Assembly: GCA_030062745.1 (NCBI GenBank)
Contig: CP099842.1
Span: forward strand, 620,001-684,000
Reading direction: 5' to 3'
DNA: 64,000 nt
DNA from: Capitulum mitella
Taxonomy: Eukaryota > Arthropoda > Thecostraca > Pollicipedomorpha > Pollicipedidae
The notes under the pieces are model-generated. The model was given only the letters and a program-made list of their open reading frames with translations. It was not told the origin of the DNA and did not search any database. Every line of letters starts with the position of its first letter. Within the stretch, counting starts at the first letter, position 1. Position numbers and translations under genes: made by a program. Shown here piece by piece: positions 687 through 54,180 of this stretch.

Positions 687-1913
687 TTAACCCACTATTG
701 ACTGGGAGGGGGATGTTTGACGACCACCCCTAGCTAATTTTTTAGACATCTCCCAAACGAATAAACCCAAAGTCCTGAAAGTTTCGGCACATTTTTTCAT
801 CAGTGCTGCACATAATGATAAAAATTTGGAAACGACATCATTTTAGGTCACGACCTAATGACGTCATAAAGACGGCCATGTTTTGCGACTTGATTTTCAC
901 GGCCTTACTGTCGGTGTTTTACAACGTATGGTGACTGTGGCTTACACTGCATATCACCATGGCCTTAAAGTTCAGTATGGAGCTCCTCTCACCTCATCCT
1001 ACGTCATCCTAAATCAAATGTGTATTTTTCGTCCCCCGGGTCCAGACCGAGTACATTTTGGAAAAGGAAGTGAATAAACCGATTTTTGGGTACGGCCAGA
1101 TTATCAATTTTCCTTGCCACTGGACGCACAACTTGCGTGCGAAGCAATTCCTTGCAACATTGCAATACTTTTTCGTTGTTTGACCTCGGTTGGTTATACG
1201 TACGTTTCTGTTTGGTGAGTACACTGATGGCGTCTGACGCTGTGGATGACCGGCGTGGAGATATCGGCTTTTGAAATGCTGTGCAACACTCCCTGTAGAT
1301 GTGAAACACGGGGAAACTGACTTGTGTAATGTCATCAAGAAATTTCTTGATGACACATATGGAGGCCACTAGCATGCTCATAAGACTCCGAATTTAAAAC
1401 TTCAGACTGCCGCAGTGTTGCATGTGCACGATAATTTGGACAGTCTCAGGGCATTTTTTGTGCCTAAAGCTCTTTGAAAGTGTCTTTTTTTAGTCTCCGC
1501 GTCAAATGGGCCAAAAAATGTATTGCATGATATTTTTTGGCGGAGGCCAAATTTGACCCGGCCTGTGGCCTTGACATTGTATGGCCTTGGGGCACGTGGC
1601 CCTTAGAACATGAGATTGATCTGCCCGGAACATATTAACACGCAAAATTCTACCACTTTTCTACTACTTTTCGTTGTAATCAGGCGACTCTGGGACAAAT
1701 GGCCACTTTTTCGTGTTTGACCTGGCCTGTGACGTCATCAGTAACCCAAAAGTAAGGAATGTATATGTCAAAGGACCGCAAGTTTCGGCATTATCGATTG
1801 CCGTTTGAATCAGCTGAATCGGGCCATCGGTTCTCGAGACAGACAGGCGGGGGCGTTAATCGCTCCCCCCGTCAATGGATGGTGGCGAAATACCCCAGCC
1901 AATGTCGAGTTAA
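687..1913. mobile_element. TTAA-flanked element, about 1.2 kb, diverged relative of the TTAA superfamily
   Basis: The left end reads TTAACCCACTATTGACTGGG. Read from the right, the other end begins TTAACTCGACATTGGCTGGG, so the ends are imperfect inverted repeats bounded by TTAA (687-690 and 1910-1913). G-rich and C-rich blocks lie just inside both ends. Its right part (about 1790-1870, with GATTGCCGTTTG and TTCTCGAGA near a G-tract) resembles the right ends of the elements at 13313-14527 and 48458-49676. The total length of 1227 bp also matches theirs. Short reading frames inside show no known domain and are taken as chance. A TTAA target and CCC-type termini are typical of piggyBac-like elements; that assignment is an inference. 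Confidence 0.55.
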
Positions 1914-2440
1914 CAGGAGCAAAAAAGAAAAAATGATGCGTGTGTAATCCTTTAGCCTGTAACATTGTTTCTAGGGACCTGGATAAATTACGTATGTATA
2001 AAGAATCATCCAGTTTGGCCTGCCTTGGACCGAGCCCCATGTGCCGGAGGTTCTTGAAACAATGAACAAGCTCCGTCTGCATTGTTCACTGTTGTTTCAG
2101 CAACACTTGGCACACGTCAAATTTTTGGTTGTGAAATAGCGAAACGTATCTGGCCACTTCGGTACACTGTAAACACCAACACCACCATGTATCGGGTGTC
2201 GGGACAAACTATCGGACCGGTCATAAACAGCCGGCGGCATGTCCCGGCCCCATATTCACGGCCCACGCAGTGGGACATGAATGGGATGGGGACAGTGGCC
2301 CCCATCCCACAGCCCAGGGAAGCGCACCTCAGCCAAGCGAGTCGCTCGCAGCCCGGTCGGTACAGTGCCTGTACACTAAACTTCCTGCCTAAAATGATAG
2401 CGACGACAACAAAGAAAACGACTTCTCTGGTAATATGGCG
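1914..2440. other. no gene recognised
   Basis: Sequence between the TTAA element and the gypsy-derived block. It may include the long terminal repeat or 3' flank of the gypsy relic, but no repeat pair was found to prove an LTR. Confidence 0.35.
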
Positions 2441-3900
2441 CTCAATCTCCAAAGAAACTTAGTCTGTTCCCTCCGTCAGAGAACATTCGTCACGCTCGCG
2501 CTCTACCGACTCGACGCGACCGTTGCGGTCACCGGCTGTTGGGGCGGCGACGTCCGCACATCGGCCTTCCCCAGCGCAGGCTCGTCCGACGGGCGCCCGC
2601 GAAAGCCTCGGACGACGACTCGGCCCCAGCCGTCTCCGGCAGGGTCGCCCGCATCGGAGCCTCCGATGGTGACGCCAACTTCCCAGGAGCCGCCTCAGCC
2701 ACCTGAAGCGGGAGCCGACCGCTGACCGAGCTCGACACGTGCGACAGAGGCAAGCATAGATCGGACATCTGAGCCCCGACGGTGGCGCCACCTCAGCACG
2801 AACCGTCTACGGTGCCAGAGACCGGCGCTGCCCACGGGCATCGCGACCGGCAGCCACGTCAAGGGCGGCGATGACCTCAGGAGACTATGTAAACTGACCA
2901 TCCCTTAGCCTGCACCGTATCTGGTCGATGTTTCGTCGCCAAACCTTACCATCCGCCATTTTGACTGCATACAACACTGGTCCATCAATACTGACGGTCG
3001 TTCCAGCAGGCCAAGGCGGACCAGCGCCATAGTTTCTTGCAAATACAGTATCTGCGACGTCCAATTTGCCATCTCCTTTTGTCTTGGGATTGTGGTTGTC
3101 CTTATGTGCCACCTGCTGCCATATCACCTCCTTCCTTTTGTCCGGATGCAGCAGGTCCAAACTGCTTCGAATGAGACGGCCGGCCATGAGCTCTGGGGGT
3201 GTGACGAAGGCAATGCTGTGAGGTGTGATGTGCTGATGGAACATCCAACGAGACAGGGTGGCCTTACAGTTGTTGTCAGTCCGCGGCAAAGCAAGCTCCA
3301 TTTTGTGTACCGCGCGCCCTGCGAGGCCTTTCCCCTGACTGTGACGAGGTTCAGTTATTTGAGAAACTGTGGATGTAAACGAGGTAGCGTTGTCAATTAT
3401 CATCATGTCTGGGAGTCCCCATCCGGAGAATATTTTCCGTAGTTTGATAATCGGTGCAACCCTAAGCCCCAATAATCAATTAATCGTCGTCTTGCAGCAG
3501 ACGCTAGCACTAATCGCGGTCTCAGGCCACTTGAAGCACGCATCTACCACAACTAACACATACCTTCATGTTGTGGGCTCCGCGAAATCCAGATGTACCC
3601 GCCACCAGGCACAGTCAGGCCAGGGCCACATACAGAGGGCAGCACGGTCCGGTGCGCGTCTACTCTCCTGGCACGCCCAGCAAGCGTTCACAATGCGTTC
3701 AATGACCTGGTTCATGCGAGGCCACCATACGCAGCCTCTGGCGAGAGCTTTCACCCGACGAATACCAGGATGAGCTGCAGGAAGCTCCGTCAAGACAGCC
3801 TCACGGGACCTGCTGGGGATTACAACTCTGTGACTCCACATCAGTACGTCAGAAGCACACGGACAGTTCCAGTAGTATGGTAGCAAACACAGACAGTTCT
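2441..3900 (-). pseudogene. Ty3/gypsy-type retrotransposon integrase remnant
   Basis: Reading on the minus strand, 3886-3566 encodes an integrase zinc-binding region: a histidine in HPGIRRVKALARG and a cysteine pair in NACWACQ, in the usual order upstream of the core. The piece at 3472-2885 continues the core and C-terminal part: GLPDMMIIDNATSFTS fits the catalytic D(N)G-type block, followed by GLAGRAVHKM, TPHS, PPELMAGR and a tail VFARNYGAGPPW...RRNIDQIRCRL. The last block is typical of gypsy elements whose C-terminus has an arginine-rich DQIR motif. The pieces are separated by stops and frame changes, and I see no reverse transcriptase upstream, so this is a dead 3' fragment. The GC-rich 2441-2884 lies downstream of the integrase on the coding strand and is probably its Ser/Arg-rich tail and flank. 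Confidence 0.75.
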
Positions 3901-4229: not shown

Positions 4230-4259
4230 CACACACACACACACACAAATATACATATA

Positions 4260-9380: not shown

Positions 9381-9660
9381 GGCGGGCATATCGGAGGCCG
9401 CAGACTGCTGCACGTTGCTGTGGCGACCACGCTCACCTGGCCGCTTTGTATGCGACGGCGGAGATTTTCCTCCTTCCGATAGCTGTTCTGTGCGAAATAC
9501 GAATGTGGGCGATTCACTCCGTGCCAAGGAAACCGCTGGAGGAAAACGCGGATTTTGCAGGCGCATGGCTGCTACTTACGAATGCTGCTCTTGACTGCCA
9601 AGTCACGGGAATCGCTTTGTTTCAAGGTCTGCCTCTCAAGAGACTTTCAGGCGGCCCATC
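9375..9660 (-). promoter_or_regulatory. promoter, 5' UTR and exon 1 of the short glycine-rich gene
   Basis: On the minus strand this matches the proximal promoters at 34.2-34.42 kb and 52.57-52.79 kb. It contains a core AAAATCTCCGCC, a TATA-like CATACAAAG (about 9452-9444), a short 5' UTR, then CCGCC-ATGAAG with the donor GTGAGA at 9374. The ATG is 9380-9378. It is the most diverged of the three promoter copies in the upstream block, where GTTTTCCTCCAGCGGT is still conserved. The TATA element is the variant form seen at 52.7 kb, not the TATATAAG of the long gene. Confidence 0.65.
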
Positions 9661-9869
9661 TTCACAATCATGTTTTCACCCGTGCATTAGTGATGGAGAC
9701 ATTCACCCCTGAGACAGCGCGCCTTCCACTCCATCCGTTTCCCTAACGACTTCCGTTTGTGACAGACCCACCAGGCTTTCAGTGCCTGTCCATATTCAGC
9801 TTTCTACGGCAGGATACCAAACAATTTTCCTTAAGCCGCAAATGGCCATAATTATGTACGGAAACGTTT

Positions 9870-11103: not shown

Positions 11104-11390
11104 TTAACCCGCGCCCGACTGGCAGTCGGTGCCGATCACGCTCGACTGGGAGGGGGGGGGGGGCGCGGTTGACCGCCTCCCCCTCTAACTCACGAGCGGC
11201 TGGTCGCAGGATAAAAATAATCGCATTGATAAAAATAAGCACACTGTTAAAAAGCTCGTGAAAAGAAGAGCTTGAAACTGACCTCAGCTTTAGTTTTGGA
11301 TAATATGGTAGCCATTCACGCCCTATATGTTTTCTCACAGCCGACTGCATGAAACCAAGATGCGGCCTGGATCTCTAGGACTGTGATTAA
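11104..11390 (+). mobile_element. TTAA element family B, copy 1, left part
   Basis: Begins TTAACCCGCGCCCGACTGG and carries a G-tract/C-tract block (CTGGGAGGGGG...CCTCCCCC) and then CTAACTCACGAGCGGCTGGTC. It matches the left 260 bp of the element at 19379-20604 (TTAACCCGCGCACGACCG...CTAACTCACGAACGGTTGGTC) up to GGACTGTGA. At TTAA 11387-11390 a second, inverted copy has inserted. The first copy resumes at 14784. Confidence 0.75.
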
Positions 11391-12201
11391 CCGCCCCCGA
11401 TGGGGGGGGGGCGGTTGACCACCCCCTCGAGGTTTTCCAAAGTTGCGAGAACGAAGGAACGCAGCGCCACGAAAATTTGTGTACCTTTTGATCATTTTTA
11501 CACCTTGTGTTGAAGTTCTGGCCTCAGGTCAAGTCAAATGCTTGACGTAAGTCAGGTCACGTGGACCTATGCCAAAAAGGTTAGCACTCTGTAACGTTTT
11601 CAGAAAACATCATATAACAATAAAACTCCCAGGGATTAGAGATTTTGATGGATGCAATAAATCTCTCATCTCAAATTTTCCTGAACTTTCGGGGTCATTG
11701 ACCTACGATCAATCCCATTTTTAAGGCATGTCGTCGTTTTTTCGAAATTTGACGTTTTTTTTAAACATTTTTAGTGTGGAGTGATGCAGACATCCATTTT
11801 CCGTCAATGGACACAGTATTAATGACTTTCCGCCATTGACCTGAGGCCAGGTCACGAATAGCTGTTATGAGCAAAAAGGCACCGCCGTCAAAATCGGCGA
11901 TGAATTGTTCAGAACGAGTTGACAATGGCCGAACTGGCTCGCACAGCTGTGAGTAATACCAAGAAGGTGATTTTCATTTTAAAATGCATATTTGGAATCA
12001 AACAGACTCTCGCGGATATAGCTCTGCCAATGGTGTAAATTAACGACTACTGCATTTCTCCAAAATTTAAGCATGGTAATTCACCACAAGAATCACTAGG
12101 ATCACATAATATCTTGATGTGATGATATGATTTAGGATAAAGAAGTATCATATGAAAAGGCCTATGTCGCGGAAACAAAGGAACGCTAAAATTATTTCTC
12201 G

Positions 12202-13236
12202 TTAATTCATGCCACGTTTTGCTACGACGCCCGCCGCCATGGCATGCTTACATACACCAGGGTCAGTGAAGGTCAAAGTCATCAAATGTCAAGGTCAGAT
12301 ATCTTGGGACCTGGTCCAGATTTGCCTTGGGACATGCCGACTTGTATCAAATATGCATTCAAAGGCCCCAATAAAACCACGTATCGCACACTGATAGCTT
12401 ATATATACCGGGGTTAGTGCAGGTCAAGGTCATTGAGGGTCAAGAGTAACGATTTTGTGACCTGGTCTAGATCTGCTTTGCGATATGCCGATCTGTATTA
12501 AAATATGCATGCAAAGACCCTAATAAAAACACGTTTGGCACATTTATGCGCATATGCATGTATATAGATATATAATTTTTACGCTTTATAGCGATCAAAC
12601 CGTGTAAAGGGGTTTATTATAACGAAGCAACTTTAGCGCAAACAGTTGACATAAAACTTATTTAGGGTAAAAAACTTCATCCAAGGTCAATGACCTCGAT
12701 TCCTTTCTTTTGACCTTGCGTAGGTCAGTAGACGCTAGAAGTGATTAAATGTGCCGATGTTCGCTATCTTCACAAAAATACTCCAAAAGATGCGTGTAGC
12801 GCCTATATTTACAGTCAAGCTATCCCGTGTTGTTCGAAATATAATCTGCAATAGACAAAAAATGACGCCACATGTCAATGATCTGACATGAGCTTGACCC
12901 GAAATCCCCAATCAAGATGTCAAATAAATGGAAATTGTATTTTACGTCTCAACTCTGAAACAAACACCCTTTTCGTGTTTCGTTCGTTCGAAAAGTCTTG
13001 CGGAATGGTCTGTACGAGACGATCAAGTACCCAAAGTTGACTTTTCGACCCCATTTGACCTTAAAGACACTGACCCAGGGTCATGGAACTTGTACATAAT
13101 ATAAATCGTTATGGCCCCACCCTGTCCATGAAATTTCATGTCTCTAGCTCTTTCCGTCTCCGAGATCGGAAGGGGGCACTCTGGTGCTCCCTTCCAATGC
13201 GCGTTAGCGCGAGAATCCCTTCCACCGCGCGTGTTA
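12202..13236 (-). mobile_element. TTAA element family C, truncated copy with about 150-bp internal repeats
   Basis: It matches 21564-22868 in inverted orientation. The shared parts include GTCAAAGTTGACCTTTTCG-like sequence near 13030-13060, the block with GGTGCTCCCTTCCA near 13175-13195, and two tandem units of about 152 bp (ATGCATTCAAAGGCCCC near 12352 and ATGCATGCAAAGACCC near 12506). The right boundary is TTAA 13233-13236 after CCACCGCGCGTG. The left end lacks about 270 bp compared with the other copy, so TTAA 12202-12205 may be chance. About 100 bp of the host element is missing at the insertion. Confidence 0.6.
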
Positions 13237-13312
13237 AGCAAATCAGACAAATTAGGCCCGTATCGGCGTCGGCATTTTACCTGTTTATTGGTGCCTTTAC
13301 CTTGAGTTTTTA

Positions 13313-14527
13313 TTAAACCTATTCCCGGCGGGGGGGGGGCAGATCCGCCCCCCTCGGGTTTTTTGCTTGCCAATTCCAGGCTTTTTAACGCAGCTTCACG
13401 AAACTTGGTCACTTTTCCTAGCTATTCTTTCTACGTGCCGTGATAAAATTTCAAAAATCTACTTTGCCCAGGGGCGGAGTCAGGCAACGTTTTTGGGAGG
13501 CACCTCATGCCATTTTTGGCCATGTTAAGGGTAAAAGAAAAATGTCTGCCAAAAACAGAGTTTTTAAGATAGAACTTAAAACTTTATATGGATGTATAGC
13601 TAAATAGTTGGGCCATGTGCAGATAAAATTTTGTTTACCTGAGGCCATTTTACAAGGTCAGATCAAGGTCAAAAGTCAAAATTTGTTTTTTTTGCAATAA
13701 TTTCAACGCCGTTTTTTCAAATGCCAAACCCGAAATACATATGACGTAGAAGAATGCCTTCTACTTGTGTGCCAAGTTTCAGCTTGATATCAGATCGGGT
13801 CACGGCGCTATGACCTAAAATGTCAGTGCGCGTACCCTATATCGCAATAGCCATAAAATGAAATTTTTGAAATAGAGTGAATTCAAATGATTGAAAACGT
13901 TTAAAGATAATATTTAAATGCATAGGAGATCATTCCAAGTGACCCCAAGGTCGCTGGAGGTCATTTAGGGTCAAAGGTCACAAGTTGATCTGAGAAACGT
14001 GTGACCACGACAGTTCCCCTTTTTCATGTCCCTGGCACCGCCTATGCTAACATTATACAAACATTGCAATGCAATTTGTACTTCTTTAGTATAACATGAC
14101 TAGCAGAAGCCAAAAAGGGTGTTTGCCTCTTTTGTTCACCCAGTTGTTAGAAAACTAATCCTCCTATTTTTGAAACCCTGTGGACGCCCATGGATTTTCT
14201 CAAAATTTCACATTTGTGGACCCATGGTGAAAAGCCCTATCCATAATCTCTCGATTCATGCCAGTTTCATCGAAATCGGTCAATAAACAACGGAGTTATA
14301 AGAAGTCCAAAAGTACCCCCCATTTTGACATTTTTGCCCCCCTGTATCCACAAATTTCAAAATTTTGAAAATTTCGTCTTATAAAAATGTAGTTCACGTT
14401 ACGGCAAATCGATTACCGTTTGTTGCGATTAAATCGGACAAGTAGTTCTCGAGATCTCAGGGGGGGCCGAATCCGCCCCCCTGCCGGGAATCGGCCATAC
14501 CGTCTAGCCCTCCGGGAATAGGGTTAA
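13313..14527 (+). mobile_element. TTAA element family A, copy 1 (about 1.2 kb)
   Basis: Bounded by TTAA 13313-13316 and 14524-14527. Its left end reads ACCTATTCCCGGCGGGGG and its right end CCGGGAATAGGG, so it has terminal inverted repeats. G-tract/C-tract hairpins lie inside both ends (GGGGGGCAGATCCGCCCCCC on the left; GGGGGGGCC..CCGCCCCCC on the right). The interior is rich in AGGTCA half-sites, including GGGTCAAAGGTCA at 13968-13980. It sits in family B copy 2. The uninterrupted family B copy (about 19632-19645) has TTATTAGTCACAGCCC where this one has TTATTAA-element-TTAATCACAGCCC, so the insertion is exact with a TTAA duplication. No coding frame of note, so presumably mobilised by an enzyme encoded elsewhere. 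Confidence 0.8.
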
Positions 14528-14783
14528 TCACAGCCCTTGAGATGTAGGCCGCATCTTGGTTTCATGCAGTCGGCTGTGAGGAAACGTATATAGAACGTAA
14601 ATGGCCTACATATTACCCAAAACCAAAAATGGGACCAGTTTCGAGCTCTCACTTGTCAAGGACTTTCCAACGGTGTGCTTATTTTTATCGTGGGATCAGC
14701 TGTTCGTGAGTCAGAGTGAGGGGGGTTAACCGTCCCTCCACCCAGTCGGTCGTGATCGGCGCCGACCGTTTGTCGGGCGCGGG

Positions 14784-14975
14784 TTAATAAAGTCTAAGTA
14801 AAGGCAACAATAAACAGGAAAAGTCCGTAGATGCCGATATACGCTTGGTTTCTCCGATCTGGTAAATATATACGCTGGAACGTTGGGTTCAAGACACGGT
14901 GATTTTCGCTCCGGCTGTTACCGTAGCCGAACGCGGAGTGAAATTAACGGGACTAATTTTAGCGTTTCTCCATCC
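14784..14975 (+). mobile_element. TTAA element family B, copy 1, continuation
   Basis: Picks up copy 1 after the inserted inverted copy: TTAATAAAGTCTAAGTAAAGGC... GATGCCGATATACGC... ACTAATTTTAGCGTTTC. This matches 19637-19830 of the intact copy (TAATAACGCATAGGTAAAGGC... ACTAATTTTGGCGTTCC). The match fades after about 14975, so the rest of copy 1 is lost. Confidence 0.7.
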
Positions 14976-16167: not shown

Positions 16168-16240
16168 TTAACCCGACACTTCCTGGGGGGAGGCGTCAAA
16201 TAGGACACCCCTTGGTTTTCGTGAAGAACTTCTGAACCAT
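16168..16240 (+). mobile_element. fragment resembling the end of a TTAA element
   Basis: TTAACCCGACACTTCCTGGGGGGAGG is followed by CACCCC, the same order as in family B ends (TTAACCCG, then CTGGGGG, then a C-tract). No matching opposite end was found, so only one terminus can be supported. The string is quoted as two parts: TTAACCCGACACTTCC and TGGGGGGAGG. Confidence 0.4.
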
Positions 16241-16559
16241 AAGGACAAGCCATACCAAACTTTCAGTGCCCGTCCATCAATCAATTTTACAGATTCTAAC
16301 ATCGAAACCACTTCCGTGCTGGGTCAGTTCATGGAGATATGCCATGCGTAAGTTCTTGCATGCATGTTTCTGCCTCTTCAGGCGGTGGCGCGAACATGCT
16401 CCATTTTTCGATAATATTCGCGAATATAATGCGTGGATCATTTGTATTTACATAGGACAGAGCCCCCCAGAAAGGAAATGCAGCCGCGCCACGTCAACAC
16501 TAGAAGTCATGCTGGGCCACATGCATGATGACATTTGGGCATGATTTGCGTTGTGGGTG
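16241..16559. other. no gene recognised
   Basis: Contains AACTTTCAGTGCCCGTCCAT near 16259, similar to a stretch near 9775, probably a small dispersed repeat. Nothing else was recognised. Confidence 0.3.
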
Positions 16560-17440
16560 ATGAAAGTGATTGCCACTGACCTTCCCTACCGTTCAAGCCA
16601 GACAAGCGAATTTATATGCGCCTGTTAGCAAGGTTCACGAAATGCGTCGTGCGGTTATGTCATGTCACGCCATAGGTAGATGTCATGACGAAATTACGTG
16701 CAACATTGTCTGTGAAAGATCGTTCCGTAGAAGCAGAAAGCACATATTGCCCCTGGCAAGAAAAAGAAAAATGACTCTGTGTTGACCTGCTTGACCTTGA
16801 CCTTGACAAGCCTGCAAATGCATAACTTCATACATTTGTAGTCCCGTTGGAATGCGGACTGTCCTTAGCAGAGCGTATCGTCGAACAGCTGGAGCATCAG
16901 CCTCTCCTCCCACCCATCCTAGACCTCGTGTTGCTTCTTGGGGTCCCTGGGTATCGGCTTCTGTCACTGGGCAACCTCCTGAAGAAAATGTTCTTGTTGC
17001 TGCAGGTGCCTGTAGAGAGCAAAGATCTCACCGTAAACAGCTCAATTGTGCCGGAATGTTTTTTCCTAGAAGAAACTAGAGCGGAGACACCTTTAAGATT
17101 AGGCAACGTGTGCAAGCTGTAAAAGAAAGAAAAAAACGATTCAAGACAAACTTGACTTCTGCAACAGTTCCATGAGCTGAAGTGTTATGTGAACTGGGAA
17201 TTGTCCCACTTGCTGACGTGCAAACTACTGTGCGATAAGCTACAGCAAGGTGACTTGTCACAGTGGTACTCTAAGTATTTCAGGTGACTGCACTCGGTGA
17301 AGTTGCTCGTGTAATCCTTTTCGGACGCGTGCACCGGTTACTCTGCCCCATGCACATAAGGTCATTGTCTTTGTGGATAGAGCATTGCCCGAATGCGCAT
17401 GGGTTTTGTGTGGGCGTGCAGGATCCATGCCGCAAAAACA
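16560..17440 (+). repeat. dispersed repeat family D, copy 1
   Basis: Matches 28250-29080 in the same orientation at several points in order: CATTTGTAGTCCCGTT with CATTTGCAGTCGTGTT; CTTGGGGTCCCTGG with CTAGGGGTCCCTTG; GTGCAAGCTGTAAAAGAAAG with GTGCAAGCTGTACTCTAAAA; and GACTGCACTCGGTGAA in both. The part at 16575-16785 also matches 39.88-40.14 kb in inverted orientation, including a shared pattern of codons, so an old coding element is possible. No known domain was recognised. Confidence 0.6.
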
Positions 17441-19378: not shown

Positions 19379-20604
19379 TTAACCCGCGCACGACCGTCGG
19401 TCCGTCCCGAACATCGGCGACTGGGGGGGCAGTTGACTGCCCCCCCTCTAACTCACGAACGGTTGGTCGCACGATCAAAATAAGCATACCGTTCGAAAGC
19501 CTGTGACGAGAAGAGCTCGAAACTGGTCTCATTTTTAGTTTTAGATAATATGTAAGCCAATTTACGCCCTATATATGTTTTCTCATAGCCGGCTGCATGA
19601 GACCGAGAAATGGCCTGAATCTCAAGGGCTGTGACTAATAACGCATAGGTAAAGGCACCAGCGCACAAGTAAATGTCCGCAGATGCCGATACACGTCTAA
19701 TTTCCTCAGATTTGTTCAATATATACGCCGAAACGTTGAGTTAATGACACCGTAATTCTCCCGGTCGGCCGTCAGTGTGCGCCGCTGCCGTATGCGGTGC
19801 CAAATTGATGGGAACTAATTTTGGCGTTCCTTTATTTTTGCGAAAAAGGACAATCTATGCCAATTTTATTGATCTTTGTGGTTCTTGTGATGGTTTCTCA
19901 TGCTTAAATTTCGGGAAAATTGATTAGTTGCCAATCTTCAAAGTTGGCGAAGCTTTATTCGCGAGAGCCTATTTATTTCCAAAATATGCTACTTTTTCAA
20001 ACTTTTGGAGGTTCCTGGTATTAATTACGTCTGTGCAAGTTAGTTCTGCCATTTTCTACGCATTCTGAGTAGTTCATCGTCGATTTTGACGGTGGTACAT
20101 TTTGGCCCACTACAGTTATTCGTGGCCTGACCTCAGGTCAATGGCTGGAGGTCACTGATACTTTGCCCAATGACAGTAACTAGATGTCTGCTTTACTCCA
20201 CACTAAAAATGTTATGGAATATTCCGTCAATTTCCCAAAAAACGGCGATATGTCTTAAAAATGGGCTTGACCTTAGGTCAATGACCCGGAAAATTCCGGA
20301 AAATCTGAGAGAGCAGATTTGTTGCATCTATCACGGTCACTACTCCCTGAAAGTATTATTGAGATATCTTGTTTTGCAAAAAAGTTAGAGGGCGCTAAAC
20401 CTTTTTGGGCATAGGTCTGTTTGACCTGACCTAGGTCAGGCGCCTCACCTGACCTGAGGTCAAAATTTTGACACGAGACGTAAAATTGATAGAGCAAAAG
20501 GTACACAAAGTTTCGTGACTCTGTGTTTGTTGGTTCTCTCGCAATGCCAGAAAAACCTCAGGGGGGCAGTCAACTGCCCCCCCCCCCAGTCGGGGACGGG
20601 TTAA
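19379..20604 (+). mobile_element. TTAA element family B, complete copy (about 1.23 kb)
   Basis: Left end TTAACCCGCGCACGACCG (TTAA 19379-19382). Right end, read inward, TTAACCCGTCCCCGACTGGG (TTAA 20601-20604). The termini are therefore inverted repeats. G-tract/C-tract blocks lie inside both ends (ACTGGGGGGGCAGTTGACTG near 19420 and GGGGGGCAGTCAACTGCCCC near 20561). AGGTCA and GACCT motifs are dense near 20110-20160 and 20265-20465. It provides the uninterrupted reference for the nest at 11.1-15.0 kb. It has no coding frame and is probably non-autonomous. Confidence 0.75.
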
Positions 20605-21563: not shown

Positions 21564-22868
21564 CTAACCCGCGCAGTGGAAAAGGGTTTCGTGCTAACGC
21601 GCACTGGAAGGGGGGATCTAAAAGGATCCCTCTCCGATCTCAGAAACGGAAAGGACTAGAGACGAAATTTTTTTGGACAGGGTAGGGCTATAACGATTTA
21701 CATTGTGTGCATTTTTTATTAACCTATGTCGATATCTTTAAGGTCAAATGGGATCGAAAAGGTCAACTTTGGACACTTTCTCTGACTGTACACGCCATTC
21801 CTTACAGCTTTTCGAACGAAACGGGAAAGGGTGATTGTTTGAGCGTGAACACGTGGAATGCGATAACTTCCATTCATATGACGTCTTGACTGGGGATTTC
21901 GGGCCGAGGTCATGCCAGGCCATTGACCTATGGCGTCATTTTTTCATCTTTTGCAGATCAGATTTCGAGCAACACGGGATAGCTTCAGTATAGATAAGGG
22001 CGCTACTCGTATCTTTTGGCGTATTTTCAGTGAAGGTAGCCAACATGGGTACATTTTGTCACTTCCAGCATTTATATGTATGTATATATGTATATGCATA
22101 TATGTGTATACATTTGAATACCAATGTGCCAAACGCGTTTTTAGTAGGGTCTTTGAATACATACTTCATACAGATCGACATATTGCAAGCAAATCTGGAC
22201 TAGGTCACAAAATAGTCACCCATGACCCTTGATGACCTTGATCTCTACCGACCCTAGTATATATAAGCGTATTCATGTGCGCACTCGTTTTTTTATTAGG
22301 GCCCTTGAATGCATATTTAATATAAACTGACATGTCGCAAAGCAAACCTGGACCCGGTCGTTTGACCTTGGCCTTTGATGACCTTGGCCTTCATTGATCC
22401 TGGAATATGACAGCGTATCAGTGTGCGCATACGTGTTTTATTAGGGTCTCTGAATGCATATTTCATACAAATCGACATGTTGCAAAGCAAATCTGGATCA
22501 GGTCACAAGCTGGATGTCCTTGACCTTTGGTGACCTTGGCCCTTATTGACCCTGGCTGTGGTCTTGGTACATCCATCACTTATGCTCGAATGGCGTCGCC
22601 TGACTGTGTTCAAGTGGCAATCTTAGGTAGAAAGTTAGGAGGTTCCCATTTATCAGCGACAGCCATTATTTGCGTTATGTTTCATGGGCTTGAAATGCTT
22701 GAAACTTCAAAAAATTTTGGCGGATTCCCAATTTTTCAGTGTCATTCGACGAATTATTCAATTGCCATAAACGTCACAAAGTAGCAGCAGTCAACTCCGA
22801 TCCGTTCTCAAGATTTTCAAGAAAAGAGTTGGGGGCACAAAAAGACCCCCTTCCAGTGCGTGTGTTAA
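21564..22868 (+). mobile_element. TTAA element family C, longer copy with three about 150-bp internal repeats
   Basis: Left end CTAACCCGCGCAGTGGAAAA (TTAA changed to CTAA, 21564-21567). Right end read inward TTAACACACGCACTGGAAGG (TTAA 22865-22868), giving inverted termini. Three tandem units are marked by TAGGGTCTTTGAATAC (about 22146), TAGGGCCCTTGAATGC (about 22298) and TAGGGTCTCTGAATGC (about 22442), each followed by a cluster of GACCTTGG/GACCTTTG half-sites. The truncated inverted copy at 12.2-13.2 kb has two of these units. Confidence 0.7.
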
Positions 22869-26620: not shown

Positions 26621-27875
26621 TTAACCCTATTCCCGGAGGGCTACACCATATGGCCGATTTTCGATACACCTCATTCGATTCTCTCTACACCATATGGCTC
26701 ATTCTCTCAGCAGGGGGGGGCAGATTCGCCCCCCCCGTGAGATCTCGAGAATTACACATCTGATTTCTTCGCAACAAACGGCAATCGATTTGCCATAACG
26801 CAAACTACACTTTAAATAAGGAAGTCTTAAAAATTTTGAAAGGGGTGGATACAGGGGGCAAAAATATCAAAATGGGGGTACTTTTGGACCTCTTATAACT
26901 CCGTTGTTTATGCGCCGATTGCGATGAAATTGACATGAATGGAAAGATTATGGATGGGACTTTATCACCTGTACACACATTTGAGATTTTGAGAAAATTC
27001 ATGGGCGTTCACAGATTTTAAAAATAGGAGGATTAGTTTCTCAAAAACGGCATGAACAAGAAAGGTTAACGCACTTTTTGGCTTCTGCTAGTCATGTTAT
27101 ACTAAAAAAGTACAAATCGTACTACAATGTTTTATAATGTTAGCATAAGCGGTGCCAGGGACATGAAAAAGGGCGAACTGTCATGGTCACATGCTCTTCA
27201 GATCAACTTGTGACTTTTGACCTTAAATGGCCTCCAGTGACTTTAAGGTCACTTGAAATGATCTCGTGCGCATTTAGTATTACCTGTAAATGTTTTCAAT
27301 CATTTGAATCCACTCTATTTCAAAAATTCCATTTTACAGCTATTGTGCTTTAGGGTAGACGCACTGACGTTTTAGGTCTTAGTTCCGTGACCCGACCTGA
27401 CATCAAGCTGAAACTTAATAAACAAATAGAGAGCACCCTATTACGTCATATGTTTTCCGCGTTTGGCATTTCAAAAAACAGCGCCAAAATTATTACTATA
27501 AAACCAAATTTTGACTTTTGGCCTTGACCTGACCTTGTAAAGTGACCTCAGACGAACAGAATTGCATTTGCACGTTGCCCAGCGATTTAACTGTACATCC
27601 AATTACGGTTTTGCGTTCTATTTTAAAAACGCCATTTTTGAACGTCATTTTCCTTTGACCATCAACAGTGCCAAAAATGGCCTGAGGTGTCTCCCAAAAA
27701 TGTTTCCTGACTCCGGCCCTAACCAAAATGGAATTTTAAAATTTTGTCGCAGTACGAAAAAAGAATAGCTAGGAAAAGTGACCAAGTTTCGTGAAGCTGC
27801 GTCAAAAACTCTGGAATTGGCAAGCAAAAAACCCGAGGGGGGCGGATTCGGCCTCCCTGCCAGGAATACGGTTAA
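26621..27875 (-). mobile_element. TTAA element family A, copy 2 (inverted)
   Basis: Bounded by TTAA 26621-26624 and 27872-27875. The left end is TTAACCCTATTCCCGGAGGG. The right end is CCAGGAATACGGTTAA. The interior matches the 13.3-14.5 and 48.5-49.7 kb copies in reverse, including TTCATGTCCCTGGCACCGC read on the minus strand near 27150-27170, and AGGTCAAAAGTCA on the minus strand at 27223-27211. A short local duplication near its left end (TACACCATATGGC, about 26642 and 26686) accounts for its slightly greater length. Confidence 0.8.
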
Positions 27876-34140: not shown

Positions 34141-34199
34141 ACCAACTGAAAGTCTCTTTTGAGAGGCAACCCCCTAAAAAAATTATTTCTGTGAAGTTC

Positions 34200-36831: not shown

Positions 36832-37740
36832 GATTACCCTTTGTTTACGGAGAACAGTCCCAAAGATATCTATGCAATGCTGGCTACCTTAATGTGCTCT
36901 TTACTTCCATCTGAGGGGAAGAAACGGTTCTGTGTATAAAACAATGCTGAAATATGCAATACATAGATGGCTGGTGCACATATCTTACAACGGCGACACC
37001 GACAGTTCTGATGCAACTGAAAAAGGTCGCATTTTGAACATTAGCATTCTTCGTAAGATAACCATTTTACTCACTGTTCCAAGTACAAAATGTAAAAAGT
37101 CGACTTAGGGCTTGCCTGTGTTCACGTTTCAGAACACCAAGTATTTGTATCAATATGAATGCAGTCAGAGAAAATTAAACTAGCCACGTTCACCGTTCGA
37201 CACAGACAGTAAAACAAAGATATAGATGAAGACCCTACGCACATAAGATATCATATACCAACCCCACGAACCTTCTCCAACGCACTGCTCATATCAGACA
37301 AAACATACTAATAACAAAAACGAACAATAAAATGAGGATAAATGGACAACAGCGGACCTGGCTCATAAGTAACAACGCAGCACGCCCTTTCGTCTCTAAC
37401 AATTCTACTTTCATTCAAATAATCAACAAATATTACAGTAGGAGCCCACTGGCATGCCTTGTCACTGATCTCTTTCAGTGTGTTCAGAATGTTTTAAAAG
37501 ATTTGAAGTTGCCTTCCCGAATCTCCATGACCTTTAATGATAGGATGCTTCCAGTTTGTTTCAGTGGCCAGTGAAGTCTTGTTTAGGGGGTTCAGGTTCA
37601 TGATGCATTGATGCAGGGTGATCAAGAGGAACTGATACAAAGTATGGTTCTAAGGGCAACATTAGCAAACAAACGAAAGAGTTTCTGCTAGGTATGCTGT
37701 GGTGTACACATCGGGATATTTCATGTCTCATCTTATCTGG
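36832..37740. other. 3' flank of the glycine-rich gene, no further gene
   Basis: No clear AATAAA close to the stop. TATAAAACAATG at about 36938 and AACAATAAAATG at about 37323 are possible weak or distal signals. Confidence 0.35.
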
Positions 37741-38840: not shown

Positions 38841-39879
38841 CAATATAATACCTCCCAAATATGTCTTTTAACGAAGAAAAGTAGAACCCATGTCTCCATG
38901 GTGGCTGTTTTCTTTATACCAGTTGCTAGTGATCACCCTGTAGGTGTGTTGTGCTCTTCCCGAGCGATTGGTGAGGCCCTTGAATCATGTCCGCGTGGTG
39001 CTCCTTCAGTCTTACGATTTTTAGTCAACCTGACTTCCCGATGTGAGACGTTCCGCAATCGCTCGTGGTTTGGTGGGAAAGGTCTATCTTAGAGCATGAC
39101 ATGCATTGTCTTGAATCCGCCACTGTCACCACAAAGTGTACAAAATGCGTCATAAGCAATGGCGCAGCCAGGGTAGGGGTTGTAGGGGCCCCAGGACCCC
39201 TAAATGTTTGAAGGAGACCGCTGAGGTTAGCAAATTACTCGTATAAAAACTGAAGCTGTCACCAAAATGTTTTAATCGAACACCGCCTGACGTGTTTTCG
39301 TGCCCGCGACCGCCTAAGAGTGTCAAAAAGGGCACCCCCTGCTATCTCACGATCTAACCGTCCGATCCAAACCGGTCTGCCGCCAATCGATAGCTCTCAG
39401 TCTTGCGATAAAAAAAAAACTTTGTTAGCCCTGGTCACATGGCAGATCACGTCACCGGTCACACAAAACGCATAACACGACTTGGAAAAAACTATATCAA
39501 CTGGTACATCATATCATCAACAATACGGATCTAAGAGCTTTCAACTGGGTATCAAACGAATGGTCATGATCTACATTAGGAGCCTGCCAAAATGTTAAAA
39601 AATGTTGGGTCAAAGTCAGTCTAGGTCAGGTGAAATGCTGGTCTTACTTTACATGCCAAAGAGCAATACTCACGCGAAGCCGTTTTGATCTACGTGATAT
39701 AAAGAATGGACGTGAAACCTTCTCATGATCAATTCTGCATTACCTGCTTTTCATCCAGTCAAGGCCAGATAAGGCTGCATTATTTTTCCTGACAAAGAGG
39801 GATAATTACTCGCTGGGATTCTTACCTACGTCAAGTGCAAAGCTGACATGGTATCTCGTGAAAATTAAATCTGGTCTGT
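38841..39879. other. no gene; AGGTCA-bearing sequence
   Basis: About 39430-39920 contains GGTCAAAGTCAG, TCTAGGTCAGGTG and CATCAAGGTCAAGTC and may be a further worn relative of the TTAA elements. No ends were found. Confidence 0.3.
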
Positions 39880-40145
39880 CTGCTTTGTATCGCATCAAGG
39901 TCAAGTCATATCAGAACAGATAGTCATTTTTTTTATTTTCTGACTAGGAACAATAATTGCTCTCCGCTGCTACTGAACGATCTTCCACAGACAATGCTGT
40001 ATTTCATTTCATATTGACATCTGCCTTTGACGTAACCTAGCGTGACATCATGTTGCATTTGGTGAACCTTTCTAAGAGACGGATATGGATTTGCTTGTCT
40101 GACTTGAATGATGGGGAAGATCAGCGGTAACAACTTCTATCACTC
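39880..40145 (-). repeat. dispersed repeat family D, inverted fragment
   Basis: Matches 16575-16800 when read on the minus strand (CAGACAAGC, TTAGAAAGGTTCACCAAATG, GTCAATATGAAATGAAATAC and GGAAGATCGTTCAGTAGCAG against the corresponding stretch). Translations of the two keep similar residues, so the family may once have coded for protein. Confidence 0.5.
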
Positions 40146-40574
40146 ACAACGCAAGTTAGTCCAATTGTCATCGTGCATTTAACTCAGCATGACCTCCAAT
40201 GCTGATGTGCCACGGTTGTATATTCTTTTGGACCTTGTCCCATGTAAATCCAAATAATTCATGCGTTATATACGCAAATATTATCAAAAAAAGGAGAAAA
40301 ACGCAGCATGCTGGCGCCACCGCCCAAAGAGGCGAAAATATGCACGCAAGGGTTTACTTCTGACGTCATATATCCATCACCTAACCTATTATCGACATGG
40401 TTTTGGTGTCAAAATACGTAGAAATGATTGCTGAATAGGCCCTGAAAATTCTGTTGAGCCAGCTCTAGCGGCTCAAAAGAAATTCAAGAAAAACCGAGGA
40501 GGTTGTCCTTTTTGATACCCCAGGTTATGCTGGGTTAAGAATGATACACAGGAAAACACGAAAAGTGAAATGCG
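40146..40574. other. no gene recognised
   Basis: AT-rich flank of the minisatellite. Nothing was recognised. Confidence 0.35.
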
Positions 40575-47480: not shown

Positions 47481-48457
47481 CGAGGACAAGCCGGCCTGAC
47501 ATTTGATCGGCTGATCGGAATAGCACAAAGTTCGCCGCATACCACCATTGTTATCTTTACGGACCCGCCTGGAAAGTGTCAAGACAATACGTGGAACGCA
47601 GTCTGAGTTGATGAGGATTTCCATTCCACAGTTCGATGGCCGCGTACAAAATAACACTGGGCGCCGCGTCGGCCGTCAACATTTTTCGAGCGCCGTGAGC
47701 CACTATTAGTTCACACTGAGGTGGAGGCCATTTTTTTCAAATAAATTTAGCCCGAAAATATTGAAGTGTGTGGCGCTGGGATGAGCGTCCATGCTAAACC
47801 GAGCCTGGTGCTGGAGCCTGACCCGCCTCCCAGGTGTTCCCAAGTACGCATTAATTTTGCCCCACGCGCTCGACCAGATAGCGTTGGAGGATATTGAGCG
47901 CGCCTAGCAACTCCGCGACACGGCTGCCCCGTGACCGGCTGACCTTTTCGATCTCTGGCCAAATACAGGTGTCCGTTCCGGGGCTGGAATCTGCCTGCCT
48001 GCCACGTACCTGACTCTGCTGTTCGGTCCCTTAGCTTGGCATAGACGTTTGTGGGGGGGCTTTAACACAACCCCTGTTTATCTCTAAAGCCGATTCGGCT
48101 GATTGAAACAGCAATCGATAGTGCCGATACTTGCTGTCCTGTGACATGTACATGTTTTGACTTTGGGACTGCTGATGACGCCACCGATCAGGTCAAAGAC
48201 GAAAAAGTGACTATTTCTCTAGAATCGTCTAATCACAATGGAAAGCAGAAAGAGACTGAATTTTGGTAATATGTTTCTGGTAGCCCAGTTTCATATTCTA
48301 AGTGCCACCTGACCCAAGATCGCTTCAGGTCAAGGTCGGGTCAGCTTGACTTTCGTTGTAACGTGTCATGCGGTGCATGTTTCCCGGCCCATCTGACACG
48401 GGGATTCTAAAAATGACACCTTCAAAGAGCCTTAGGCACAAAAAAACTAAAAAGTTC
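47481..48457. other. no gene recognised
   Basis: About 48180-48370 carries CAGGTCAAAG, TCAGGTCAAGGTCGGGTCAG and is probably another worn member of the AGGTCA-rich repeats. Confidence 0.35.
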
Positions 48458-49676
48458 TTAACCCTATTCCCGGCAGGGGGGCGGAATCTGCCACTCCTCG
48501 GGTTTTTTGCTTGCCAATTACAGGCTTTTTAACGCAGCTTTACGAAACTTGAGGAATTTTCCTAGCTATTCTTTCTACGTGCCGTGACAAAATTTCACAA
48601 TTCTATTTTGCTCAGGGGCGGAGCCAGGCAACGGTTTTGGGAGGCACCTCATGCCATTTTTGGCCATGTTGAGGGTAAAATGAAAATGTGTGCCAAAAAC
48701 AGAGTTTTTAAGATAAAACTTAAAACTTTATATGGATGTACAGCTAAATAGTTGGGAAATGTGCAGATGGAATTTTGTTCATCTGAGGTCATTTTAAAAA
48801 GTTCAGGTCAAGGTCAAAAGTCAAAATTGTTTTTTTTGCAATAATTTCGGTGCCGTTTTTTTAAATGCCAAACCCGGAATATATATGACGTAGAAGGATG
48901 TCTTCTACTTGTGTACCAAGTTTCAGCTTGATATCAGGTTGGGTCACGGAGCTATGACCTAAAATGTCAGTGCGCGTACCCCATATCGCAATAGCCGTAA
49001 AATAAATTTTTTGAAATAGAGTGAATTCAAATGATTGAAAAAATTTACAGATAATATTAAATACACACGAGTTCATTCCAAGTGACCCCAAGGTCACTGG
49101 AGGTCATTTAAGGTCAAAGGTCACAAGTTTATCTGAGAAACGTGTGACCATGACAGTTCCCCCTTTTTCATGTCCCTGGCACCGCCTATGCTAACATTAT
49201 ACAAACATTGTAATGCGATTTGTACTTATTTAGTATAACATGACTATCAGAAGCCAAAAAAGGGTGTTTGCCTCTTTTGTTCATTCAGTTGTTAGAAAAC
49301 TAATCCTGCTATTTTTGAAACCCTGTGAACGCCCATGAATTTTCCCAAAATTTCAGATTTGCGGACCCATGGTAAAAACCCTATTTATATTCTATCGATT
49401 CATGCCAATTTCATCAAAATTGGTCCATAAACAAGGGAGTTATAAGAAGCCCAAAAGTACCCCCCATTTTGACATTTTTGCCCCCCTGTATCCACAAATT
49501 TCAAAATTTTGAAAATTTCTTTTTATAAAAATGTAGTTCACGTGACGGCAAATCGATTGCCGTTTGTTGCGATGAAATCGGACAAGTAGTTCTCGAGATC
49601 TCAGGGGGGGGGGGCTGAATCCGCCCCCCTTGCGGGGAATCGGCCATACCGTCTAGCCCTCCGGAAATAGGGTTAA
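48458..49676 (+). mobile_element. TTAA element family A, copy 3 (about 1.2 kb)
   Basis: Bounded by TTAA 48458-48461 and 49673-49676. Left end TTAACCCTATTCCCGGCAGG; right end CCGGAAATAGGGTTAA. It is closely similar along its length to 13313-14527 (for example GGCGGAGCCAGGCAACG, TATGGATGTACAGCTAAATAG, CATGTCCCTGGCACCGCC). It carries TCAAGGTCA at 48808-48816 and a perfect AGGTCA-A-AGGTCA at 49111-49123. G/C tracts just inside both ends can form hairpins (GGGGGGCGGAATCTGCC on the left is decayed). No coding frame. Confidence 0.85.
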
Positions 49677-50861
49677 CCATCGTGCACATGCAATATTACC
49701 ACATTTCGTAGTTTCATGCCCGGAATACCACGAACATACTAGTAACCTCCATCTCACTTATCCAGATAATCCTACAAGTCAGTTTGCCCATCTTGCACAT
49801 TTCCTAGGAATGTTGCGCAACATTGCAAAGGCCAGTATCTCCACATCGGTCTTTCAGACCGTCAGACAGGCGCCACCAGTTTACTCGCTAAGCTGAAATC
49901 TGCATAAAACCACCACAGGTCAGACTGCTAAAAAGTATTGCAATGTTGCATGATACCGCTGTATAAGTTCTACGTGCACTTTATTGCAAGAGTATTCCAT
50001 AATCTATCTCGCCATATATATGGCAAAAGGTAAGTTTATTCGAATTGTTCCCTAAAATGCAGTCACACGGGATCCCGAGAATAAAAGGATGCGTATTTGG
50101 CCTGGGATGACCTAGCGTGACGTCACAGGAGCTCTAAATTGAATTGTCGGATCATACTGATATGCTTCGCAAGCTCCAGCCACCATACATTATGAAAAAC
50201 ACCGACGATACGGCGGTGAAGTACAACTGAACGTGAAATTCCAAAACATGATCGTCCTTATGACGCCATTAAAACGTGACCTAAGATGACCTCGTTTTCA
50301 AAAATTTGTCAGTATGTGTCGAATGGAGACAAGAAAGAGTAGTGAAAGTTTCAGGACGTTGCATTTATTTGTTTGGGAGATATTTAAGAAATGCGCTAGG
50401 GGACAGGGTTTAAACTCATCCCAATCAATGGCGGATTAACCATCAGAATTAACAACCGCGGCCATGTTTATGAAAAATGGCAAGCCTTTCCGCATATGCA
50501 ATATGTCCAAATTCAATTTCTTCCTATGTTGTTGAAGATTGCTTCCAATTCATAAAGTGTTTTACAAGGTCAAGCTGCACATCAGAACCATCCAACCGAT
50601 GCGAGGCTCTAGTTTGTAACGCGCAAAGATGTTAAATGCAGTACAGATGTAACACATAGGACTTTGACATTGGCCTGTTGTTATGAAATGGCAATAACAA
50701 AATAACTCCCTTATGCCTTCAGATGGCACTGATGCCACGTAACGGTTGACCGCACATATAAATCTCACAGCTTCACATTTTCCACCAGAATGATATTTCT
50801 GGAGCTGTCTTCCGGCGACTTCCTTTTCTTCCGATCTCAGCCATCAAAAATCGTCCGAAAT
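49677..50861. other. no gene; probable worn AGGTCA-type repeat at 50.09-50.46 kb
   Basis: Near 50107 GATGACCTAGCGTGACGTCA and near 50280 CTAAGATGACCTCG recall the other elements. CATCCCAATCAATGGCGGAT is followed by TTAA (about 50454-50457) and could be a right end. Not provable by eye. Confidence 0.3.
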
Positions 50862-51424: not shown

Positions 51425-51469
<45 letters not shown>

Positions 51470-51600
51470 ATATAATATAATATATAAATATAATATAATC
51501 TAAAACGGTTGAACTAACTATACCGCGTAGCCAGCGAGCTTCATGCTCATGTCGCCGCTCTAGTACGTCAGGTCTGGAAATGACCGAGGGCGTCTACCGA
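50862..51600 (+). repeat. dispersed repeat family E, copy 2, with a TA microsatellite
   Basis: Second copy of the 33.24-33.75 kb family (see there for matching points). A (TA)n/TATAA tract at about 51415-51500 interrupts it; the other copy has ordinary sequence at that place. Confidence 0.65.
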
Positions 51601-52508
51601 ATACTCATTAACTCGGCTTGTAAAAGAAGACAGACTGCTGTTCTGGTCAAGGTACAGTGATGTTAAAACGATTACATTTTACGGACGAGGAGCGTCGATT
51701 TATGTTCTTCTAAGAGTGCCATGACCCATCCAATGTTGATTTGGGCACACCCAATGTTGGTTCGGGCCCACCCAATATTTTCTGTCTATCTTCAAGGGAA
51801 ATGATATATGATAATGATAGCTCAAATTCGGCCGCAATAGATAACATGCATGTAGAAAGTGAAGAATATAGCCTAAAGAGATGTATCTATCTTTCTATCT
51901 TCTAGACATTTATATATGTATGTATGTACATGACGATAAGTGCAGTTTTTTACCTTATAACTAGTAACAAAAACCCGTAAATTTCCTTTGGTCAAAATAA
52001 AGTGGGCTAAATCCATTTTGGGGCAGTTAAGTTGTCGGGCCCTCGGCTTGACCTTCCCCATCAGTTACAGGAGTCGACGCCCCTGTTACGGATGAGAATG
52101 AATGAACGAACCTCAGCGTTGATACTACTTGCACTTCTGCTCTTTGCTGCACAAAATGTCAAAAAGCATACATCATTCATTATTTCGCTGGTAAGAGAAT
52201 GGTGCAGGCCTGTTGTTTCGGTAACAAAGAAATTGCGGGCGTGCTGTCGCCGGCGGGCATCGCCACGTGTCGGTGCAATTGGACTACCTCTGTTAGACAT
52301 TTCCCGACATGATTACGGCCGTTTTCAGCTTAAGGAAAATTCTTTGGTACCTTACCATGCAAAGTTCAGTGGGTACAGGTACTGACAGTTTGGTGCACCT
52401 GTCACAAATGGAAGGCGCTGTGGTAACAAAGAGAATTGAGGGCGTGTTATCTTAGGAACCCACCACTAACGCGCAGATAAAGAGAACTCAGCTGTGAGGA
52501 TTAGCTAC
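51601..52508. other. no gene recognised
   Basis: Two tandem CCCAATGTTGGTT-like units lie near 51730-51775. The frame at 52032-52385 has a hydrophobic start and a basic middle but no recognisable domain. Confidence 0.3.
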
Positions 52509-52786
52509 CTGAAAGTCTCTTTCCAAGGTCAAACCTTAGAGACGGAACGATTTCCGTGAATTTCGCCGTCGAGAGCAGCATTCGTAAGCAGTCATGCGCC
52601 AGCAAACTCTGCGTTTTCCTCCAGCGGTATCCTTGACACAGTGAGTGTGGTCACGCATTCGTATCTCGCACAGGGCAGTTTTCGGGTTAAGGAAAATCTC
52701 CGCCGTCGCATACAAAGCGGCCAGGTAAGCGTGGTCGCCGCAGCAACGTGCGGCAGTCTGCGGCCTCCGATATGCCCGCCATGAAT
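52509..52786 (+). promoter_or_regulatory. orphan promoter and exon 1 of a glycine-rich gene paralogue
   Basis: Matches the 34.14-34.43 kb promoter along its length, identical over 52589-52673. It has the TATA variant CATACAAAG (52709-52717), then CCGCC-ATGAAT with an intact GTGAGA donor at 52787. The second codon is AAT instead of AAG. Sequence shared with the other introns recurs at about 54215-54245 (GCAACCAGAAAAGTTACGTT). No exon 2 with the signal peptide was found up to 64 kb, so either the exon lies beyond the window or this copy is dead. Confidence 0.65.
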
Positions 52787-53817
52787 GTGAGAGTGCTCGG
52801 TCAGCTGTATTGGAAGCGACTTCATAGCCGTGTAGCGATTGCAGTCGTATCACAAACTCTTTATGGATTTATCTTCAGAAGACGAGGCTAATTAATTGTA
52901 AATTCCAACTAAAATGCTGGACGTGATGGACCTTGTAAATAATGCCTTACTGGGGCTCAACCGGATTCCAGCCTCATGCAGCTGCCTTTCACAAGTATCC
53001 AATGTGGACCAAAACCGGGTCATGCGTTCTTCTTGTGGACTGGAGATGCCAGATATCGAGCATGTGAATGTAGCGAAAAGCGACGTGCCGAAATTTTCCC
53101 AGTTACCATAACAGTATGATGACGTCAATTACTCCCTATAGAACGTGGCTAAACAGACCTGTTGCGACGAATCGGTTGGTGATCAAGAGGCAAACGGGGC
53201 AACCAACCAGTTCCCACAGTAGATTAAGTGGAAATTAATGCTAGAACTACATTATACAAGGAACTTCAGTTGCACATCCTATTGTCATTTTCTGTCATTT
53301 TTCCTTAATAAAAAAAACATTGGCAGGAAACCAAAAAACATCTTAGAAAAACATTACCTAGAACCAGGGTTGGTGATCTGGTGGTTTCCGACCTCCTGTC
53401 TCTGATTCTGAATATCCGTGTCGCAAAATATACCTGTTGATCACAGGAAACCTTCAGGAAACAAAAACTTGTTTCTAGTCACCTGAAATATTTGCGCAAC
53501 AGATTCTACTCAACGATGATCTGCCCCCGTTTACAAGAAACTGATTACGCCGAAGTTGTAGATGCCATTTGAACATGCATGTATTCGTCCATTTCACAAC
53601 TATGCTTGGGAGAAATAATCTTTTTATCAATCCATACACCAACAATTCGAGTCTGATCTGTGAACTATTCATCTTACTCTCATGCCCCACCGCGTTTCCT
53701 GAATCTACCTCTTATTCCCACTGTTGGCCTCGGGAACTGTACTATCGACTTCAGCAACAATAAACAGGTTTTTAGTCACTTGCATTGGTTCCATAACGTA
53801 CACCGCTCATTGGTCAG
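52787..53817. other. possible intron of the orphan copy; nothing recognised
   Basis: No coding or repeat feature could be supported. GTTGGTGATC occurs near 53176 and 53370. Confidence 0.3.
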
Positions 53818-54180
53818 TTAACCCTGTTCACAAGAGGGTGAATCCGCCCATGCTATACGTATGTCTGACATTATGCTCACGGAATGTATCGAAGTACAAG
53901 AAGTGCCCATTGCAATGTAAAAAATCACATATGTCTCCGTTTAATCTCGAGATAAGTGGCAAACATTTCAACAGAAACATCCCCCCATTTTTAAATCGAT
54001 GATTTTCCCTGATAACATTTAGAGTACCTGAAGACGTCGAAATCTAGCTGATTCGGATTCGTTTGCGCCTCCACACGAGCAAATCTGGCAGTCATATTTC
54101 GAGATCTCGGGACGGGGGGGGGGTTGGAATCCATCCCTCTCGCAGATTCAGGTCCATAAGAGCGTCACAGGAATAAGGAC
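53818..54180 (+). mobile_element. short diverged relative of TTAA element family A
   Basis: Starts TTAACCCTGTTCACAAGAGG followed by GTGAATCCGCCC, like the left end of family A. Near 54097 it has TTCGAGATCTCGGGACGGGG, a G-tract and CCATCCCTCTCGCAG, like the family A right end, finishing CAGGAATAAGG. It is about 360 bp, so most of the interior is deleted. It lies in the putative intron of the orphan glycine-rich copy. Confidence 0.5.

Follow-up and report, generated by a model that had tools for sequence, protein, structure and literature searches.

Probable non-autonomous piggyBac-superfamily families in Capitulum mitella and a recurring 27-28 bp step in their long ends

Among described transposons, the moth piggyBac element of Trichoplusia ni (T. 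ni) has asymmetric ends of 35 bp (left) and 63 bp (right), with a palindromic internal repeat at bp 17-33 of the left end that is bound by paired cysteine-rich domains (CRDs), and bp 34-63 of the right end are almost identical to bp 7-35 of the left end, giving an offset of 27-28 bp (PMC7351741, cited here, like the papers below, from excerpts of its text). Insertion of 5 bp in the right end about halved transposition, randomisation of the repeated core had a similar effect, and a two-dimer model was proposed in the same structural paper, which termed the lopsided layout puzzling and enigmatic (PMC7351741). Asymmetric subterminal repeats are characteristic of piggyBac-like elements (PMC4273485), and the asymmetric end plan itself is already known for them. 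Here, we describe TTAA-bounded non-coding elements of ~1.2-1.3 kb, falling into at least five families (A-E), in a 64,000-nucleotide stretch of the Capitulum mitella genome (620001-684000 of contig CP099842.1, hereafter the window; the genome comprises 477,042,490 bases in 16 contigs). We regard it as very probable that A-E are successive families of non-autonomous DNA transposons of the piggyBac superfamily. The piggyBac-type assignment follows from the TTAA borders, the CCC termini, nests that read through one TTAA, the asymmetric ends and the genomic matches to the piggyBac transposase domain, and these same features bear out the proposal of an earlier, sequence-only reading of the window that the elements are non-autonomous and moved by a piggyBac-type transposase.

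That reading had distinguished at least three families by their interiors (A, B and C). More exist, including a fifth family, E (39272-40538, and in part from 16168); a second D element, interrupted by a copy of A, had also been overlooked. Genome searches were performed with one query per family and the best 40 candidates scored for each, so that copy counts are lower bounds. For family A (query 13313-14527), the best 40 of 8672 first-look candidates were 90-95% identical and mostly full-length, and for family B (query 19378-20605), the near full-length sequences among the best 40 of 6766 candidates were 95-96% identical. The best 40 of 3942 candidates for family C (query 21560-22870) were about 79-89% identical, and the best 40 of 1835 for family D (query 685-1914) were 69-73% identical. 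Mean pairwise identity among eight fetched copies per family was 97.2% for B, 95.4% for A, 84.7% for C and 74.1% for D, and because these values differ, families A-D were probably active at different times. Long reading frames were absent from the elements (longest ATG frames of 47-125 amino acids in seven of them). Open frames of at least 150 amino acids are rare in the window as a whole (nine), and the six of these nine that were searched against Pfam matched no family. The interiors had been taken as unrelated with only the ends kept; those of A, B and D are partly related just inside the ends, with subterminal similarity for A-B, A-D and B-D. It is usual for a genome to hold several non-autonomous families. 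The suggestion that unrelated interiors with similar ends would form an unusual parallel system is thus not upheld, given the several families per genome described for the coral CMITE elements (PMC2872659) and the partial relatedness of A, B and D.

Two further features of the interiors were observed. The hexamers AGGTCA/TGACCT occur 5, 10, 11 and 8 times in 13313-14527, 19379-20604, 21564-22868 and 48458-49676, respectively, compared with about 0.5-0.7 in 200 shuffles of each, and 61 times in the rest of the window compared with 26 in one shuffle; they resemble nuclear-receptor half-sites. The family C interior contains repeats of roughly 120-150 bases (22119-22555), which are present in C2 too.

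For the border check, TTAA was sought in the eight fetched copies of each family, allowing a distance of roughly a dozen bases from the predicted border. It was found at 16/16 ends for A, 16/16 for B, 10/16 for C and 9/16 for D, at the exact or adjacent base in the A and B copies. The C misses mostly resemble one-base decays such as CTAA (by eye), and several of the D matches end short of the border. Together with 2159 exact genome matches to a 44-base sequence made up of TTAA and the A long end, versus 0 for the reversed-pattern control, these counts greatly exceed chance and confirm the existence of TTAA-bounded non-coding families of ~1.2-1.3 kb. Elements of the piggyBac superfamily start with CCY beside the TTAA, and T. 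ni piggyBac starts with CCC. In agreement with this rule, the A, B, D and C-long ends begin mostly with CCC, and TTAACCC accounts for 16 of the 536 TTAA readings in the window, compared with about 6.6 expected from composition. The TTAACCC ends previously ascribed to all of the elements hold for most ends only: the left end of C1 reads CTAA (21564-21567), the C short end starts with CAC, and the A1 left end reads TTAAACC. Exceptions to the CCY start are this A1 end (ACC), the window long end of E (TCG) and the C short end. The short segment at 53818-54180, also counted as a member, has TTAACCC on its left; its other end is without TTAA and resembles, by eye, a worn A long end.

The way in which the elements are nested was analysed by BLAST of A-D against the window and by alignments of joined flanks. 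The segment 11104-14975 is indeed nested, as had been noted, but is not one locus; it contains at least four elements (B1, B2, C2 and A1). B1 is split at a TTAA by B2 in reverse orientation, B2 is split by A1 at a corresponding TTAA of its own, and C2 splits B2 elsewhere, such that this nest (11104-14969) illustrates how TTAA elements pile into each other. Similarly, A3 splits D2. Three of the six nested insertions belong to PB1 or PB2, two families with transposase genes described below (PB1 in B at locus L027 and in C at L042, PB2 in A at L033). For all six of the nested cases built, which are nested copies within one assembly, the flanks read through one TTAA into the host element.

The ends had been described as mirror images. 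Instead, the two ends of A-D elements differ in length, the long end exceeding the short one by 27-28 bp. The G-tract starts at bp 15 of the A short end (7/7 matched copies; L001 unmatched) and bp 43 of the A long end (8/8), at bp 14 and bp 41 of the B short and long ends (8/8 each), and at bp 43 of the C long end (bp 42 in one of six matched copies). We scanned each end for an internal repeat of its core, scored as the mean match out of 10 over 49 offsets. In the long ends, the best offset was 28 for A (7.88 of 10, n=8), 27 for old B (8.0, n=3), 28 for C (8.0, n=6) and 27 for D (6.4, n=5), while short ends were without a peak at 27-28, B short excepted. The window long end of E repeats ACCGCCT at offset 27. 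When a single copy per end was compared with 2000 shuffles, the repeated core was significant for the A long end alone (offset 28, p 0.004). A and B have a palindrome near bp 27 or 54: in 15 short-end copies its centre falls at bp 25.5-29.5, and in 16 long-end copies at bp 52.5-57.5. Against the single-copy shuffles, a palindrome stood out (p 0 to 0.0095) at both ends of A, both ends of B and the long end of C. Pairing of the arms was 7-11 of 11 within an end versus 2-8 of 11 between families, with overlapping ranges for D. In a scan of all window TTAA readings, the enrichment of palindromes at TTAACCC was weak: at least 9 of 11 positions paired near bp 22-31 for 1/16 TTAACCC versus 4/499 TTAA without a following CC, and near bp 50-58 for 3/16 versus 5/499. 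The palindromes found here differ in sequence from that of T. ni piggyBac. Overall, A, B and the C long end show the geometry clearly; in D it is worn and in E weak.

We infer the enzyme class, the binding roles and the dimer number for A-E. A transposase acting in trans would excise the elements at TTAA and join them to new TTAA sites. A short end comprises the terminal repeat followed by a palindrome whose centre lies near bp 25-29; in a long end, the terminal core is followed by its repeat 27-28 bp inward and then by the palindrome. As in the moth element, the palindrome may be the binding site of paired CRDs, and the 27-28 bp step may place a second transposase dimer in phase on the long end. 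We put at even chances the broader proposal that this step is a ruler conserved in the clade, such that at least four families swapped core, palindrome and interior and kept the step and the two-fold symmetry of the palindrome, with selection fixing the geometry of two phased dimers and the bound letters turning over with the DNA-binding domains of the enzyme.

Movement of all five families simultaneously by a single transposase is an unlikely alternative. The families have the CCC start, the G/C tracts and the geometry in common, as well as the subterminal similarity among A, B and D, but their terminal cores and palindrome cores differ by family, and the different ages suggested by the mean pairwise identities fit successive related enzymes better.

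We also examined the transposase genes of the genome. For the piggyBac transposase domain (PF13843), 116 of 267 candidates were scored and at least 118 genome matches obtained, and 62 transposase segments were classified: 9 as PB1 and 13 as PB2 (at least 94%), 3 as PB2-like (82-83%) and 37 as other families. Two of the piggyBac families, PB1 (about 2.9 kb) and PB2 (about 2.7 kb), are young and have transposase genes and TTAACCC ends, with frames of 557-613 amino acids in several copies; PB1 copies are about 92-99% and PB2 copies about 90-97% alike. For loci L025-L044, 13/20 had a matched TTAACCC or TTAACCT end pair of PB1 or PB2 type. Several older transposase families, here named PB3-PB6, are also present. 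The earlier expectation of a single enzyme for all of the elements was not borne out by these genes; PB1 and PB2 have terminal repeats different from those of A-D and do not share the A-D end geometry. The A-D sequences seen at transposase loci were rejected as partner ends, being neighbours or hosts and not the loci's own ends. One locus (L119, 1-4401) resembles a composite, with a PB4 transposase remnant flanked on each side by an A copy, both copies pointing the same way; we take this as chance nesting because PB4 has TTAACCC ends of its own at L122. Another (L121, PB6) has a B-like TTAACCCGCGCCCGA end 1.1-1.4 kb upstream of the frame; this gave no evidence of a partner and was discounted because at L123, a further PB6 locus, an ordinary copy of B occupies the corresponding region. 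The PB6 palindrome, from a single copy, was not significant versus shuffles.

The families might instead fall within another superfamily with a TTAA target (Kolobok or Sola3) and merely resemble piggyBac. Sola3 elements target TTAA. Kolobok also generates TTAA duplications, though with termini of the form 5'-RR...YY-3' (PMC9587614), a rule that the mostly CCC-starting A, B, D and C-long ends do not follow, and the 27-28 bp offset and subterminal palindrome agree with piggyBac. Even with no piggyBac gene bearing A-D ends among the loci with flanks, we consider this explanation very unlikely. Slightly less probable still is that the families arose from PB1 or PB2 by internal deletion, since, for all their similar ages and shared TTAACCC start, alignment of A-D with one copy each of PB1 and PB2 gave nothing past short chance matches, the PB1/PB2 terminal repeats CCCATTAACGCCCAG and CCC(A/T)TTAGTGCCCA differ from the A-D ends, and their palindromes are non-significant. 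No intermediate linking PB1 or PB2 ends with A-D interiors was seen in the fetched loci, although no search aimed at one was made. Most likely, the enzyme driving A-E is related to these piggyBac lineages and has gone unseen, been lost or escaped assembly.

A number of results weigh against a piggyBac-type origin with a kept step. The sequence-only reading had called for a search for a piggyBac transposase gene with the same termini, and in BLAST of A-D none of the 30 loci with flanks carried A-D ends that belonged to the locus itself (no ends could be assigned to L043, L058, L120 and L121, and 56 other loci were only short segments). The C short end begins with CAC or CGC, not CCC. An intact TTAA was present in only 1/6 of the nest reference elements (L027); the other five were worn at the site by substitution, some with indels nearby. 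In the core scan, young B ranked offset 21 top and 27 joint second, family E (n=2) ranked 52 top and 27 joint second, and the B short end, expected to show no repeat, peaked at 28 (5.25 of 10; a C-rich stretch). The single-copy repeat was non-significant in C long (28, p 0.17) and B long (17, p 0.65), and offsets 27 and 31 were tied in D long (p 0.53). Across the 536 window TTAA readings, an 8-of-9 repeat occurred at offsets 27-28 in 3, versus 10 at the other 47 offsets. The palindrome was non-significant in single copies of C short (p 0.67), D long (p 0.72) and D short (p 0.15). It was likewise non-significant in the PB4 left end (L122), despite perfect 8-base arms centred at bp 24.5 (p 0.18), and in PB1 and PB2 (p 0.62-0.996); PB1 and PB2 thus show that not all piggyBac elements of this genome share the geometry.

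Table 1. Elements and end features in the window (feature, position, strand, remarks)
D element	687..1913	+	TTAA at both borders; short end 687, long end 1913; genome copies ~70% identical
B1, old B element	11104..14969	+	Long end 11104; interrupted by B2; core repeat at offset 27; right limit approximate
B2, family B	11387..14787	-	At a TTAA within B1; split in turn by C2 and A1
C2, family C	12246..13237 (left limit approximate)	-	Inside B2; TTAA visible at 13234-13237 only
A1, family A	13313..14527	+	At TTAA inside B2
E1, partial family E	16168..16800	+	TTAACCC end at 16168
Family B element	19379..20604	+	Long end 19379; short end 20604
B long-end palindrome	19423..19446	.	G-tract CAGTTGACTG C-tract; centre bp 52.5
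B short-end G-tract, palindrome core and C-tract	20561..20587	.	Centre bp 29.5 here; 25.5-29.5 among eight copies
C1, family C	21564..22868	+	Left TTAA worn to CTAA; TTAA preserved on the right
A2, family A	26621..27875	-	TTAA at both borders
E2, family E	39272..40538	-	TTAA at both borders; end 39272 repeats part of the core at offset 27
D2, old family D	48090..50402	-	Interrupted by A3; outer borders approximate
A3, family A	48458..49676	+	Inserted in D2; TTAA at both borders
Short worn A-like relic	53818..54180	+	TTAACCC at 53818; other end A-long-like (by eye), without TTAA

Other repeats were noted in the window. A further dispersed family (7352-9867, 34128-35923 and 52297-52849) has members about 70-80% alike, with TTAA near two of the four limits checked. 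At 36199-36914, a repeat with a 15-base period carries overlapping open frames of 169-210 amino acids, with an inverted related stretch at 4342-4560; the 210-amino-acid frame had no Pfam match.

Collectively, the elements are ordinary in kind, being new families of non-autonomous piggyBac-type elements, and are best compared with several described systems. The Acropora coral CMITE families are likewise non-autonomous, have TTAA and CCC starts, occur several per genome and are linked to piggyBac-like elements, but they are about 100 bp long, with a conserved interior and varying termini, whereas the A-E interiors differ (PMC2872659). CsuPLE1.1 of Chilo suppressalis is similar in having TTAA, terminal repeats (of 13 bp) and subterminal repeats in asymmetric positions, and, unlike A-E, encodes a transposase (PMC4273485). 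Human MER75, MER85 and Looper are, by description, piggyBac-like with palindromic subterminal repeats and TTAA (PMC12324416). The left and right ends of Myotis lucifugus piggyBat also differ, with palindromes bound by CRD pairs on the left end; in the excerpted text the right end is without a matching palindrome and so departs from the A-E plan (PMC11707139). An asymmetric piggyBat tetramer is described in a later preprint (PMC13405395). The piggyBac end layout is therefore not universal, as seen for the piggyBat right end and for PB1 and PB2, which are without a significant palindrome. T. ni piggyBac (IFP2) resembles A-D in its TTAA target, ~16-bp terminal part, palindrome and 27-28 bp core repeat (PMC7351741), and, unlike A-E, encodes its own transposase. 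In searches of the open-licence literature, we came across no account of several sequence-divergent families keeping the 27-28 bp step. The value of A-E lies in their ends, where another genome with other sequences has the same step as the moth element; conserved geometry with changed letters merits specialist attention, and since the step recurs in sequence-divergent natural families, the two-dimer model proposed for piggyBac can be tested on natural variants.

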